Assembly: GCF_003435375.1 (NCBI RefSeq)
Contig: NZ_QWGL01000016.1
Span: 1-64,000 of the forward strand
Direction of reading: 5' to 3'
Origin: Clostridium sp. AM34-11AC
Lineage (GTDB): Bacteria; Bacillota; Clostridia; Lachnospirales; Lachnospiraceae
DNA length: 64,000 bases
The translations under genes and the position numbers were made by a program. The notes beneath the pieces are model-generated. The model had not been told where the DNA came from. It ran no database searches and saw only the letters and a list, made by a program, of their open reading frames with translations. Positions 2,297 to 53,509 of this stretch are shown one piece after another; positions within the stretch are counted from its first letter, which is position 1, and the number at the start of each line of letters is the position of its first letter.

Positions 2297-2522
2297 GATT
2301 TTGTGTGGATATCGTATCACAGGATATGCGGGATAGCAAGGTAGTTTGGTATATAAAATTATAAAAATTTTCGAAACTATGAGGAATTTTGCAGCGCGGG
2401 GAAAATATATAGGCATGGGAGAAGCGTGTTGCTTCGGAATAGCAGTGATATGAAAATTTTAAAACGATCATGCAAGAAGTTTAAAAAAATTAAATATATG
2501 ATTTAAAATAAATAAAATCATA

Positions 2523-2551
2523 TTGACAAACTAGGAAATAGGGGTTATTAT
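2523..2551 (+). promoter_or_regulatory. SigA promoter for the metNIQ leader
   Basis: TTGACA (2523-2528), a 17-bp spacer and TATTAT (2546-2551). Transcription would start near 2558, giving a leader of about 335 nt before metN. Confidence 0.8.
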
Positions 2552-2637
2552 AGCGCCATCGGATTCGAACAGGGAGTTCAGACGATGAGGAAACATTGGA
2601 CTGCAGGATAGCAGGCGGTTGGAAAGGAGATACAGGT

Positions 2638-2760
2638 ATGGGAAATGCGGGAAGAAATAACATGAACAATATGTGTTGTTGCTGTTGTATGTGGATTTCC
2701 GGGCGTTTTTTACGGCCAGGTGCTTTGTTGTGCAGCCAGGTACCTGTATACAGAAAGTAG
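2638..2760 (+). CDS. Poly-cysteine leader peptide
   Basis: A 40-codon reading frame with an ideal ribosome site (aaaggaga, 7-base spacing). Residues 12-18 read Met-Cys-Cys-Cys-Cys-Cys-Met; there is one more Cys near residue 32 and four Met in all. It lies between the promoter at 2523 and an intrinsic terminator at 2785, upstream of metN. The arrangement is that of an attenuator peptide: ribosomes stalling on five Cys codons when charged tRNA-Cys is scarce would change folding downstream. No other function is expected for the peptide. Poly-Cys leaders are known for sulfur genes in some Actinobacteria; its use here is inferred from sequence alone. Confidence 0.75.
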   Translation: MGNAGRNNMNNMCCCCCMWISGRFLRPGALLCSQVPVYRK

Positions 2761-2820
2761 TTTCCTGTTAATGCCAGAAAATGCGCCCGGAAGTGTAAAA
2801 GCTTCCGGGCTTTTTATTTA
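2697..2820 (+). terminator. Attenuator: antiterminator and intrinsic terminator
   Basis: Terminator: 9-bp stem 2785-2793 with 2802-2810 followed by tttttattt. Antiterminator: bases 2697-2705 (ttccgggcg), just after the Cys codons, are perfectly complementary to 2784-2792, the 5' arm of the terminator. The two structures exclude each other. Ribosome stalling at 2674-2688 would leave 2697-2705 free to pair and allow read-through into metN. A further 8-bp match joins 2631-2638 (leader ribosome site and start) with 2741-2748 and may tune leader translation. Confidence 0.7.
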
Positions 2821-2894
2821 CGCGGAGAATCACAGAGACCGCGAAAACTTGAGAAGTCCTAAAATCGCGCTTCTCAGATGGGGAGGAAGAAACA

Positions 2895-3920
2895 TTGATC
2901 CAGATCGAACATGTAAGCAAAACCTTTTCAGGAAAATACGGAACCGTCCACGCGTTGGACGACGTGAGTATCCATGTGGAAAAGGGTGATATCTGCGGTA
3001 TCATAGGGTTTTCCGGAGCCGGAAAGTCCACACTGATCCGCCTGGTAAACGGTCTTGAGACGGCGGACAGCGGAAAAGTCACTGTCTGTGGAAAGGAGCT
3101 TTCCACATTGAAGAAGCCGGAACTTCGGGCGCTGAGAAGAAAGATCGGAATGGTATTCCAGCAGTTCAACCTGCTGGAATCCAAGACGGTGTACCACAAT
3201 ATTGCGCTTCCGCTGATCCTTGCAAAGACTCCGAAGGTGGAGATCGACAAGAAGGTTAAGGAAGTATTAAAGATCGTTGAGCTGGAGGACAAGAAAGACA
3301 CCTACATCAGTCAGCTCTCCGGAGGACAGAAACAGCGTGTGGGAATCGCGAGAGCGCTGACCACCGACCCGGAACTTCTTCTCTGCGACGAGGCTACAAG
3401 CGCCCTGGACCCGCAGACAACGGAATCGATTTTAAAGCTTTTAAAGAAGATCAACCGTAAAATGGGTGTCACGATCCTTCTCATCACCCATCAGATGCAG
3501 GTCGTCCAGATGATCTGCAACAAGGTAGCGGTCATGGAGAGCGGAAAGATCGTGGAATCCGGCAGCGTTCTGGAGGTCTTTGGATCCCCGAAGATGCCGG
3601 TGACAAAGCGGTTCGTCCAGACGGTTATCCGGGACCAGATCCCGGACAGCATCATAAGCCTCGTGAAGGAACAGAAAGAAAACTTCCGTGTGGACCGTCT
3701 GAAATTTATCGGTTCCAGCGTGAAGCGCCCGGTAATCTCCGATATCTGCAAGACAAAGGGTGTCGTGGTCAACATCCTCGGCGCGGCGGTACAGGAGCTG
3801 GAGGACAGCGTCATGTGCGTCTTCATCTTACAGCTCATCGGCGATGATGAGAGCATCGATAAGGCGGAAGCGGAGATCGACAAGAACGGCGTCTTAAGAG
3901 AACGACTGGAGGTGGAGTAA
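2895..3920 (+). CDS. metN: Methionine-type ABC importer, ATPase MetN
   Basis: ATP-hydrolysing subunit of a MetNIQ importer of methionine (some members also take related sulfur amino acids), acting at the inner face of the membrane. 341 residues: Walker A GFSGAGKS (38-45), signature LSGGQ (141-145), Walker B LLLCDE (161-166), then a C-terminal NIL/ACT-like regulatory domain from about residue 265, typical of MetN. The start is a TTG at 2895 after ggaggaa. It is first in a metN-metI-metQ operon. Its expression should depend on the poly-Cys attenuator upstream; no S-box (SAM) riboswitch was seen. Confidence 0.93.
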   Translation: MIQIEHVSKTFSGKYGTVHALDDVSIHVEKGDICGIIGFSGAGKSTLIRLVNGLETADSGKVTVCGKELSTLKKPELRALRRKIGMVFQQFNLLESKTVYHNIALPLILAKTPKVEIDKKVKEVLKIVELEDKKDTYISQLSGGQKQRVGIARALTTDPELLLCDEATSALDPQTTESILKLLKKINRKMGVTILLITHQMQVVQMICNKVAVMESGKIVESGSVLEVFGSPKMPVTKRFVQTVIRDQIPDSIISLVKEQKENFRVDRLKFIGSSVKRPVISDICKTKGVVVNILGAAVQELEDSVMCVFILQLIGDDESIDKAEAEIDKNGVLRERLEVE

Positions 3921-3921
3921 G

Positions 3922-4602
3922 ATGGAAGAACTCATGAAAACAAAGATCTTTAAGGTCACGGTGGAGCGTCTGCTGTTGAACGGCGGACAGACTCTTTACA
4001 TGGTTGGATGGTCACTTCTCATCGGAACGATCATCGGAATGATCCTGGCACTGATCCTGGTGCTTTGCAGAAAAGGCGGATTGGTGGAGAACCGACCGTT
4101 ATATATGATCGTCAGCGTCTACATCAACGTGGTGCGCAGTATCCCCTTTGTTATTCTTCTTGTAACGATCATGCCGATCACCCGTGCTATTGTCGGAACG
4201 ACCATCGGAAGTACGGCAGCGTTGGTGCCGTTAGTAGTTTATATAAGTCCGTACCTTGCGAGGCTGATGGAGAACAGCCTGCTTGAGATCGATCCGGGAA
4301 TCCTGGAGGCGGCAGAGGCCATGGGCGCGACAACATGGCAGGTCATCCGATATTTCCTGGTTCCAGAGACATTAGGTTCCATGGTGCTTGCACTGACAAC
4401 GGGAACCATCGGACTTCTTGGAGCGTCTGCAATGGCCGGATATGTCGGTGGCGGCGGAGTCGGAGATCTGGCATTGACATACGGTTATGAAAAGATGAAC
4501 ACACCGCTCATGATCCTCACAGTTGTGATCCTGGTGGTTCTGGTACAGCTTTTACAGATTCTCGGAAATACGATTTCTGGTAAATTAAGACAGCATAAAT
4601 AA
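3922..4602 (+). CDS. metI: Methionine-type ABC importer, permease MetI
   Basis: Membrane-spanning subunit of the MetNIQ importer; 226 residues, close to the family norm. Five or so hydrophobic helices, with the cytoplasmic EAA loop (EAAEAMGATTWQVIRYF region, about residues 130-147) that contacts MetN. It begins one base after the metN stop, so the two are translationally coupled. Confidence 0.93.
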   Translation: MEELMKTKIFKVTVERLLLNGGQTLYMVGWSLLIGTIIGMILALILVLCRKGGLVENRPLYMIVSVYINVVRSIPFVILLVTIMPITRAIVGTTIGSTAALVPLVVYISPYLARLMENSLLEIDPGILEAAEAMGATTWQVIRYFLVPETLGSMVLALTTGTIGLLGASAMAGYVGGGGVGDLALTYGYEKMNTPLMILTVVILVVLVQLLQILGNTISGKLRQHK

Positions 4603-4629: not shown

Positions 4630-5505
4630 ATGAGAAAAGCAATTGCGGGAGTACTTATGGGAGCAGCAGTGTTAAGCCTTGCGGCATGCGGAAAGAGCGA
4701 CACCGCGCAGACAACAGCGGCGCAGGCTGCAGAGAGTGCAGACAGCACAGCGGCAGCGGTTGATACGGAGGACAAGAAAGAGATCGTTTACGGAAAATCC
4801 CAGGGGCCGTACACAGAGCTCTTTGAGGCTGCCATCGTTCCGATTCTTGAAAAAGAGGGATACACCGTAAAGGGCGTGGACTTCTCTGATCTTCAGACAG
4901 CTGACATCGGATTAAACGACGGCGATGTTGATGTCAACGTGGAGCAGCACGCCGCATACGCTGAGAACTTCAACGCAAACTACAATGCGGATCTTGTGCC
5001 GATCAGCCCGATCCCGACTGTACCGGCTGGCGTATATTCTGCAAAATACACATCTGTTGATGAGATCCCGGACGGTGCGAAGGTTGCAGTTCCGAACGAT
5101 GCCTCCAACACCGCAAGATGCTATCTGATGCTTCAGAAGATCGGCTGGATCAAGCTTGCCGATGATGTGGATCCGTCCGCAGTTACCCAGGATGACATTG
5201 TTGAAAATCCGCATAACATCGAGTTCACAGAGATGAAGAGCTTAACGATCCCGGCAGCGATCCAGGACTTTGACTATGTGGCAATTACCGGCAGCGTTGT
5301 ATACAACGCAGGCATCGACCCGTCCACAGCCCTCGCAACAGAGGATATCCAGGATCACCTGGTACTTCAGGTCGTTGTGAAGGAAGAGAACAAGGACGCA
5401 GAGTGGGCAAAGGCAATTGTGGACGCTTATCATTCTGACGAGTTCAAGCAGTACATGGAAGAGAACAACGACGGATTATGGTGGATCCCGGACGAGTTAA
5501 AATAA
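4630..5505 (+). CDS. metQ: Methionine-type substrate-binding lipoprotein MetQ
   Basis: Extracytoplasmic binding protein of the NlpA/MetQ family, 291 residues. Signal peptide with lipobox LAAC, Cys20 being the lipidated residue, then a low-complexity Ala/Thr/Asp linker to about residue 45 and the binding domain starting KEIVYGKSQGPY. It ends in the family-typical WWIPDELK. The start follows an aggagag site. Third gene of metNIQ; a terminator follows. The poly-Cys leader raises the possibility that cysteine or cystine is a substrate. Confidence 0.92.
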   Translation: MRKAIAGVLMGAAVLSLAACGKSDTAQTTAAQAAESADSTAAAVDTEDKKEIVYGKSQGPYTELFEAAIVPILEKEGYTVKGVDFSDLQTADIGLNDGDVDVNVEQHAAYAENFNANYNADLVPISPIPTVPAGVYSAKYTSVDEIPDGAKVAVPNDASNTARCYLMLQKIGWIKLADDVDPSAVTQDDIVENPHNIEFTEMKSLTIPAAIQDFDYVAITGSVVYNAGIDPSTALATEDIQDHLVLQVVVKEENKDAEWAKAIVDAYHSDEFKQYMEENNDGLWWIPDELK

Positions 5506-51911: not shown

Positions 51912-52343
51912 TTATATTACATAATCATCCCCGGGCTGACCATTCTGCACGAGATCGGCGATGGTGATGCCGTCTAAGTATTCGTTGACGACTTTGTCGA
52001 GACCCTGCCAGAGAGGGAGAGTTTTACAGCTTCCCATTCTGGGACAGTTGGTGCTGCCGGGATCTAAGCAGGCTACCGGAGCCATGGAGTTTTCAGTGAG
52101 GCGAAGGATGCTGCCGACTGTGTACTGTTCCGGTGCTTTTGTGAGACGATATCCGCCGCCTTTACCGCGGACCCCCTCTAAGAGTTTTGCCTTTACGAGG
52201 ATTTTGATGATGCCCTCGAGGTATTTTTCAGAGATTTCCTGTCTCGCTGCTGTATCTTTTAATGGAATATAGCCGTCGGTCTGGTGCTCCGCAAGATCGA
52301 TCAGGACGCGGAGAGCGTAGCGGCCTTTTGTTGAAACCATCAT
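51912..52343 (-). CDS. Rrf2-family regulator (CymR/IscR-like)
   Basis: 143 residues: Rrf2 winged helix at the N-terminus (VSTKGRYALRVLIDLAEH) and three cysteines in CLDPGSTNCPRMGSC, spaced C-x7-C-x5-C, similar to the cluster region of IscR. Divergent from cysK, so it is likely a cysteine-responsive repressor like CymR, which uses CysK as partner in Bacillus; that role is inferred. The ATG at 52343 follows gggagga; the frame is open to 52427. Confidence 0.85.
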   Translation of the reverse strand: MMVSTKGRYALRVLIDLAEHQTDGYIPLKDTAARQEISEKYLEGIIKILVKAKLLEGVRGKGGGYRLTKAPEQYTVGSILRLTENSMAPVACLDPGSTNCPRMGSCKTLPLWQGLDKVVNEYLDGITIADLVQNGQPGDDYVI

Positions 52344-52513
52344 AATCTGTATCCTCCCATGCTGCTGCGAGTTGCTGAATATTTTTGATCGTAATGTAAG
52401 TTTAACATTATTCCTATTATAATACAAGGTTTAAGGGAAATAAAGACAGTGAAAAGGATAAAGGTGTTGTGATATATGATAGAAATTTTCTAACATGATA
52501 TCCGGAATGAGAC

Positions 52514-52542
52514 TTGACAAACAGATGATATCGCCATATAAT
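52514..52542 (+). promoter_or_regulatory. Promoter of cysK
   Basis: TTGACA (52514-52519), 17-bp spacer, TATAAT (52537-52542). The divergent Rrf2 gene has a TATAAT on the minus strand near 52417. Confidence 0.75.
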
Positions 52543-52576
52543 CCTATTAACATATATGAAAGGTAGGTAATAACTT

Positions 52577-53509
52577 ATGGCAAACATATATACATCCGCA
52601 GACCAGCTGATCGGAAAGACTCCGCTCTTAGAGCTTACACAGATTGAAAAATCCGAGGGACTTAACGCGAAGATCCTTGCGAAGCTGGAATATTTCAATC
52701 CGGCCGGATCGGTAAAGGACAGGATCGCGAAGGCGATGATCGATGACGCTGAGGCGAAGGGAATCTTAAAGACTGGTTCTACGATTATCGAGCCGACTTC
52801 CGGAAACACAGGAATCGGTCTTGCGTCGGTTTCGGCTGCCCGCGGTTACCGGATCATTATCGTTATGCCTGAGACCATGAGCGTGGAGAGACGCCAGCTT
52901 ATGAAAGCCTACGGCGCAGAGCTTGTGCTCACGGAGGGCGCAAAGGGAATGAAGGGCGCGATCGCAAAGGCGGAGGAGCTCGCAAAGGAGATTCCGGGAA
53001 GCTTTATTCCGGGACAGTTTGTAAACCCTGCGAATCCGGAAGTTCATGAGAGAACAACCGGGCCGGAGATCTGGGAAGATACGGACGGCAAGGTTGATGT
53101 TTTTGTCGCTGGTGTCGGCACCGGCGGAACCATCACCGGAACCGGAAGATATTTAAAGAAGCAGAATCCGAATGTGAAGGTCGTTGCGGTGGAACCGGCA
53201 AGCTCCCCGGTACTGGGCCAGGGCAAGGCAGGATCCCACAAGATCCAGGGAATCGGAGCCGGATTTGTTCCGGATGTTCTCGACACGAAGATCTATGATG
53301 AGATCATCGCTGTGGAGAATGATGATGCGTTTGCGGCAGGAAAGTTAGTTGGAAAGAAGGAAGGAGTCCTCGTGGGAATTTCCTCCGGTGCGGCGATCTG
53401 GGCAGCGATCGAACTTGCGAAGAGACCGGAAAACGCAGGAAAGACGATCGTGGCACTGCTTCCGGATACCGGCGACAGATACCTTTCCACACCGTTATTC
53501 GCGGACTAA
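52577..53509 (+). CDS. cysK: Cysteine synthase A
   Basis: O-acetylserine sulfhydrylase, a PLP enzyme making cysteine from O-acetylserine and sulfide. 310 residues: PLP Lys47 in PAGSVKDR, substrate loop [12 protein letters not shown] near 73-84, and [14 protein letters not shown] near 176-189. The CysK C-terminus ends LFAD rather than the common enterobacterial form. Divergent from the Rrf2 regulator. A terminator follows. Confidence 0.95.

Follow-up and report, generated by a model that had tools for sequence, protein, structure and literature searches.

A probable cysteine leader-peptide attenuator upstream of metNIQ, with relatives in a Lachnospiraceae-like family

The region upstream of metNIQ in Clostridium sp. 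AM34-11AC is very probably a ribosome-mediated transcription attenuator that reads the charging of tRNA-Cys, and one member of an RNA family that, in a Lachnospiraceae-like family, precedes cysteine and methionine enzymes and transporters. Throughout, the window is the whole stretch of DNA analysed, 64,000 nucleotides of contig NZ_QWGL01000016.1. The parts of the leader, their recurrence in other genomes, covariation, gene context and a predicted structural switch were all computed. An original prediction had described a promoter, a 40-codon leader ORF, a run of five Cys codons and a terminator in this region, and all four were found where it had placed them. See Table 1 for the coordinates of each feature.

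Table 1. Leader and operon features in the window
Feature	Position	Strand	Basis
SigA-type promoter TTGACA-17-TATTAT	2523-2551	+	11/12 consensus matches
Shine-Dalgarno AAAGGAGA of the leader ORF	2623-2630	+	sequence
Leader peptide ORF MGNAGRNNMNNMCCCCCMWISGRFLRPGALLCSQVPVYRK, 40 codons + stop (stop at 2758)	2638-2760	+	sequence
Five consecutive Cys codons, TGT TGT TGC TGT TGT, proposed stall site	2674-2688	+	sequence, shuffles
Antiterminator 5' half	2697-2706	+	folding, covariation
Antiterminator 3' half, overlapping the terminator 5' arm	2783-2792	+	folding, covariation
Antiterminator helper helices	2708-2711/2778-2781 (4 bp), 2714-2716/2773-2775 (3 bp)	+	folding
Intrinsic terminator: 10-bp stem 2785-2794/2801-2810, 6-nt loop, then TTTTT	2785-2815	+	
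Covariance model R1 match, 95.8 bits (window is 1 of 14 training sequences)	2671-2818	+	
metN, ABC ATPase with NIL domain, TTG start	2895-3920	+	Pfam, NCBIfam
metI, permease	3922-4602	+	Pfam, NCBIfam
metQ, NlpA-type substrate-binding lipoprotein	4630-5505	+	Pfam, NCBIfam

The leader contains the sequence and structural features of a ribosome-mediated attenuator: a Shine-Dalgarno site with its ORF, a Cys run, a terminator, and a covarying antiterminator that excludes the terminator. The Cys run is a mixture of TGT and TGC codons and is the only run of at least five Cys codons in the 64-kb window, counting both strands and any frame. Among 5000 dinucleotide shuffles of positions 2558-2894, no ATG frame held a run of five or more Cys codons and one held four or more. 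Complementarity to the terminator arm as good as the real one arose in 3 of 5000 shuffles of 2689-2770. Since related leaders are found elsewhere, a chance origin of the Cys run and of this complementarity is untenable. A relative of the leader peptide among public proteins (P0001) is 88% identical and keeps CCCCC. The antiterminator begins 8 nt after the Cys run; the pairing first proposed, 2697-2705 with 2784-2792, is indeed a perfect complement, and folding of 2697-2795 (RNAfold, -40.6 kcal/mol) extends it to 10 bp, 2697-2706/2783-2792.

We then modeled the effect of a stalled ribosome using a partition function and an assumed footprint whose leading edge, following general knowledge, was placed 13 nt downstream of where the A-site codon starts. 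With RNA extending to 2825 and this assumed footprint, stalls at Cys codons 1-4 formed 8.0-8.5 of the 9 antiterminator pairs but just 0.3-1.1 of the 10 in the terminator, while a stall at Cys5 gave mainly the terminator (7.2 of 10 pairs) with the antiterminator mostly lost. With the ribosome beyond 2710, all 10 terminator pairs formed, and 9.9 of 10 did so with the ribosome absent. Shorter transcripts behaved differently. At RNA end 2815 the Cys4 stall was near even, with 5.0 of 9 antiterminator against 4.3 of 10 terminator pairs, and at RNA end 2810 the terminator prevailed at equilibrium despite the stall (8.4-9.9 of 10 pairs). When no ribosome was present, the antiterminator also formed until RNA end 2805 and was displaced thereafter. 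A stall is thus predicted to leave the antiterminator arm free at Cys1-4 and mostly to fail to do so at Cys5, and the stalled complex would have to keep the antiterminator kinetically over a few nucleotides around RNA end 2810.

From these parts we infer that the leader is translated and that ribosomes stall on it, as well as the signal and the direction of the response. When Cys-tRNA is scarce, the ribosome would stall on the Cys codons at 2674-2688, and its front edge would leave 2697-2706 free to pair with 2783-2792. The antiterminator so formed would block the terminator, and RNA polymerase would continue into metNIQ. With ample Cys-tRNA, the ribosome would keep moving across the antiterminator arm in the direction of the stop codon (2758), which would let the terminator (2785-2815) form.

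We searched for related leaders in 397 genomes of the Lachnospiraceae-like family of genome G002, which contains locus L012. The window Dxs is 79-85% identical to that of nine genomes of this draw, and therefore the window belongs in or near the searched family. A codon pattern (GGAG, ATG, then ATG-TGY-TGY-TGY, with gaps) matched in 75 of the 397 genomes, and the reversed control gave 1 match among those listed. These matches comprise 88 places, 49 in frame and 39 out of frame. We read 47 of the in-frame places, leaving out two that were ispF-like, and kept 29 by eye; L105 and L127 were then dropped, which left 27 stand-alone leaders. Most other in-frame places were rejected as leaders for lying inside longer genes, including those of PTS IIB-like proteins and the ispF frame. 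Adding the window, L152 and L153 gave a set of 30 leaders. A script found a terminator in 28 of them, and inspection by eye showed one in the remaining two, L094 and L144; for L130, L123 and L124 the terminator bounds were set by eye instead of by script. Scanning viral contigs for the Cys motif and searching a plasmid collection produced no match.

Next, we tested each leader for a duplex between the terminator arm and up to 60 nt following the Cys run, using 200 mononucleotide shuffles per leader. Over the 30 leaders, own pairs averaged -19.7 and crossed pairs -15.3. The window duplex, at -30.4 kcal/mol, was reached by 0 of 200 shuffles and ranked first among the 30 leader arms against the window terminator arm. 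The test gave p<=0.04 in 17 of the 30 leaders and p>0.04 in the other 13 (L088, L094, L102, L110, L113, L119, L130, L137, L142, L144, L145, L149 and L153), of which L094 and L113 are class I members. Widening both sides for 15 leaders brought five to p<=0.045 (L088, L102, L125, L139 and L146; L088 at 0.045) and left ten above 0.05, including L145 at 0.07. Together, these tests place the window in class I, the group with a common antiterminator. The poly-Cys leaders outside class I may use other pairings.

We aligned 14 class I leaders with MAFFT, leaving out L094. Over 15 pairs, 90.2% of cells in this alignment pair, a flattering figure because the leaders were hand-picked for showing the motif; versions slid by 1-3 columns reach 27.8-47.9%. 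Covariation among the 14 leaders scores 0.292 against a shuffled mean of 0.181, with none of 500 shuffles as high, and 7 pairs change on both sides against 3.4 in shuffles, 7 of 500 of which reach that number. RNAalifold predicted 8 pairs of helix 1 unaided from the same alignment and did not predict helix 2. At columns 23/140 (U-A) and 30/133 (G-C), the window has a pair other than the most frequent one and so preserves the pairing. In a larger set of 33 sequences, 92.2% of cells pair, again flattering because the rows were fitted to the structure model, and 10 of the 15 pairs change on both sides, above all 500 shuffles. The last Cys codon lies 11 nt from helix 1 in 21 of the 33, against 7 nt in the window. 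Family members have between 1 and 5 Cys codons. Those with one or two often carry Met codons beside them, and four of the 33 (L163, L167, L168 and L175) have a single Cys codon before the helix, which counts in part against the expectation that homologous leaders keep the Cys run. In L157 and L160, TCGAATG beside the Cys codons is complementary to CGTTCGA about 30 nt on, a possible protector hairpin (TCGAATGC/GCGTTCGA). Several R1-found leader peptides (e.g., L161-L166) end in Arg-Cys before the stop.

The covariance model R1, built from the 14 hand-picked leaders, has 149 positions and 15 pairs. Run against the poly-Cys leaders, R1 scored L094 at 46.9 bits and the other 15 tested at no more than 23.8 bits; L144 and L153 were absent from its matches at E up to 10. 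On the 397 family genomes it matched in 50 at E<=0.001. On 391 class genomes it gave 20 matches in 14 genomes, of which 18 were new and L156 was training member L131 again. The L169 match looks like chance, as no leader is present there. An in-frame start with a Shine-Dalgarno-like site occurs in 32 of the 36 R1-found leaders.

The genes behind these leaders largely belong to sulfur metabolism and transport. Among pattern-found leaders, 19 of the 22 first genes scanned fall in Cys/Met-metabolism or amino-acid ABC-transport families: Cys_Met_Meta_PP (6), PALP (2), NlpA (4, two of which also carry a family-3 binding domain), SBP_bac_3 (2), permeases (3), NIR_SIR (1) and an M20 gene before MetN (1). 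The first genes of L110, L130 and L136 fall outside these families. The 22 leave out L098, L111, L125, L137 and L088; the first gene of L088 is MetN, and those of L125 and L137 read as MetN and CysK, respectively. The R1-found leaders of the class agree, with 15 of 16 scanned first genes in the same families (Cys_Met_Meta_PP 8, NlpA/MetQ-type 5, PALP 1 as a C-terminal piece, permease 1, and L157 without a Pfam match); L162 and L168 were left out of the scan, and L168 reads as MetN. For the 18 new family R1 loci among the matches listed, reading the first genes gave 13 Cys/Met PLP enzyme-like and 4 family-3 binding protein-like. In the remaining one, L201, a class I leader precedes what looks, on reading, like a glycyl-radical enzyme gene. 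The substrate of a transporter cannot be told from its binding-protein or permease family. Taken as sequence evidence, the sulfur targets and the Cys codons point to tRNA-Cys as the probable signal. The claim of a complete attenuator keyed to cysteine is thus supported by the Cys codons, the covarying antiterminator and the sulfur-metabolism targets in other genomes.

MetN, MetI and MetQ of the window were named from Pfam domains and from NCBIfam best hits below the curated cut-offs. The closest solved relatives of the window MetQ are chains of lipoprotein GNA1946, which we take to be the MetQ of N. meningitidis. These chains read NGNY where the window protein reads TGSV, and the Asn of NGNY presumably contacts methionine. 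MetNIQ may carry cysteine or cystine; a transporter importing methionine that the cell then converts to cysteine would need the same Cys control.

MetN orthologs at E<=1e-100 were present in 5 of 299 genomes. Four of the five lie in checkable operons; in the fifth genome, G146, only 231 nt of contig precede the M20 gene. G226 has a poly-Cys leader directly before metN (L088), G123 has a CMCC leader before metN-metI-metQ-M20-metN, with the ortholog as last gene (L152), and in G166 (L145) and G037 (L153) the leader precedes an M20 peptidase gene followed by metN. The expectation that related metN leaders would share both the Cys run and the alternative pairing was borne out in part: all four operons have a Cys leader, and three of these four (L088, L145 and L153) showed no antiterminator of the window class. 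A scan of genome contigs for MetN gave at least 80 loci, one at 64% identity and the others at no more than 53%. The 64% locus, in G001, is the closest MetN among the matches listed and has no such leader. The nine genomes nearest by Dxs gave neither a codon-pattern match nor an R1 match, and MetN searches, which covered the nearest genomes other than G346 and G366, gave no ortholog of the window MetN. The distribution of the attenuator is therefore patchy, with 50 of 397 genomes R1-positive and the nine nearest negative.

Near relatives of the window also have metN paralogs (43-49% identity), and these lie behind either a T-box (L206, at 1189-1445) or Met-rich leaders (L207 and L208). The Met-rich leaders are conserved, lie about 260-300 nt before metN and are a candidate methionine leader attenuator. 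The two arrangements hint at a split of control between paralogs.

The -35 box of the window promoter lies in CATATTGACAAACTAGG (window 2521-2535), which resembles CCTATTGACATAGTAGG before related leaders and is a candidate operator. CCTATTGACATAGTAGG forms a palindrome over the -35 box, and its left part, CCTATTGAC, occurs in 24 of 49 leader regions and 14 of 18 R1 loci. Elsewhere in the window, an Rrf2-family regulator is divergent from the cysteine synthase gene cysK (51912-53509); the regulator scores 96.4 bits against a CymR cut-off of 195 and is also below the IscR cut-off. The window further contains a Clostridiales-1 RNA (Rfam RF01699, 60887-61058) and short repeats encoding GLSQ units (1084-1130) in a reverse-strand ORF at 847-1968.

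Which amino acid the leader senses deserves closer attention, as the leader may read methionine too. A stall at flanking Met codons would then also give read-through, and the attenuator would report a general shortage of sulfur amino acids. We consider this rather unlikely. From start to antiterminator in the 32 R1-found leaders, Met ranks first among the residues (88 of 529) and Cys second (73 of 529), although Met is partly enriched by construction, since the search pattern and R1 both contain ATG next to TGY. Met also stands beside Cys at the run itself, as MCM in L167 and L175 and as MCMF in L168, and the leaders of metN paralogs L207 and L208 (QMNM..LMCGM.MCGM) precede a terminator-like hairpin seen by eye. 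Against this, the ATG in CGAATG may be conserved as RNA sequence, and in the window the five Cys codons are consecutive and the Met codons isolated. Comparison across genomes thus upholds a Cys-keyed attenuator, while charged tRNA-Cys may not be its sole signal, as Met codons recur beside the Cys codons.

Three further explanations are less probable still. Cys runs can bind metals, and a Cys-rich nascent peptide might sense metal or thiol-oxidising stress and arrest or release the ribosome. This is highly improbable here: the Cys codons vary from 1 to 5 while the antiterminator spacing is constant in most leaders (11 nt in 21 of the 33), a pattern more in keeping with a stall site than with a metal site, and the first genes scanned serve sulfur metabolism and amino-acid transport, even though a copper-responsive uORF has been published (PMC9426467, in excerpt). 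Still less probable is a riboswitch or T-box with an incidental ORF. The RNA structure is conserved, and T-boxes and S-boxes serve sulfur genes in clostridia according to an excerpt of PMC2940859, but the conserved helices are those of the antiterminator, and the in-frame start and Shine-Dalgarno-like site are kept in 32 of 36 R1-found leaders. Furthermore, the window leader and 20 related loci had no Rfam 15 match at gathering score, and a search at E up to 10 gave sub-threshold matches only, yet the same tool finds the L206 T-box. Both a T-box (RF00230) and a SAM (S-box) riboswitch were rejected for the window leader on this absence of a match. We give the least credence of all to two further readings, in which the arrangement arose by chance or the ORF encodes a small, functional Cys-rich protein and has its own terminator. 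Short ORFs are common and the frame is kept in P0001, but the shuffle tests, the covarying antiterminator and the codon pattern, with 75 of 397 genomes against 1 reversed-control match among those listed, all argue against it.

More broadly, and tentatively, Lachnospiraceae-type Clostridia may run their cysteine regulon largely by leader-peptide attenuation, a proposal that we hold at somewhat short of an even chance. Several operons per lineage would share one conserved antiterminator, superimposed on a promoter operator, with codons tuned to Cys alone or to Cys and Met, and MetNIQ paralogs would be split between Cys-read and Met-read control. A covarying cysteine attenuator family before several kinds of sulfur operon would in itself explain how Lachnospiraceae-like bacteria control cysteine supply at loci lacking an Rfam T-box or S-box match (20 loci). 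It would also add an RNA family to those available for annotation, and its presence offers a hint, from regulation, at what loosely annotated transporters carry.

Most known cases of leader-peptide attenuation come from Proteobacteria and Actinobacteria, and those in Firmicutes are scattered, as far as excerpts of PMC2965389, PMC9413887 and PMC5794164 describe it. The Rfam attenuators named in the excerpt of PMC3766115 were, at its time, His, Leu, Thr and Trp only. Excerpts of PMC1262725 describe Cys leaders in Actinobacteria, and those of PMC13236596 describe M. tuberculosis leaders whose Cys codons are regulatory. We found no description of poly-Cys attenuators in Lachnospiraceae in the open PMC literature, a collection that mostly excludes subscription papers. 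Judged on that literature and Rfam 15, the cysteine attenuator family is apparently undescribed.

Several published systems resemble the window leader, and we compare them as far as excerpts of the sources reach. The His attenuators of Firmicutes (B. cereus group, Peptostreptococcaceae and Erysipelotrichales; PMC9413887, PMC2965389) also combine a leader ORF carrying a one-amino-acid codon run with a terminator and antiterminator; they read histidine, in 17 genomes in PMC9413887, whereas the window family would read cysteine before several kinds of operon. The ilv-leu Leu attenuator of S. aureus (PMC5794164) is a proposed, mutant-supported case of ribosome-mediated attenuation in a Firmicute, and differs in reading leucine at one operon where the window family has cysteine and several operons. 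Mycobacterial polycysteine ORFs (Canestrari 2020; PMC1262725) also precede cysteine genes and are cysteine-responsive according to the Canestrari title. However, these ORFs are leaderless and, in the excerpt of PMC1262725, have no conserved terminator hairpin, unlike the window with its Shine-Dalgarno site, intrinsic terminator and antiterminator; the mycobacterial leaderless type was rejected for the window on its Shine-Dalgarno site (2623-2630) and terminator. By description, uORFC-8-2 of Rhodobacterales cysS (PMC8632094) is similar to the window in its tandem Cys codons, attenuator-like structure and U run, but it is alphaproteobacterial and, in the excerpt, occurs only before cysS. Finally, the clostridial Cys T-box (PMC2940859) responds to tRNA-Cys charging at similar genes by premature termination, as we propose for the window. 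According to the excerpt, that T-box binds tRNA directly and has no leader ORF, whereas the window leader, which has no Rfam T-box match, would read the same charging through a translating ribosome.
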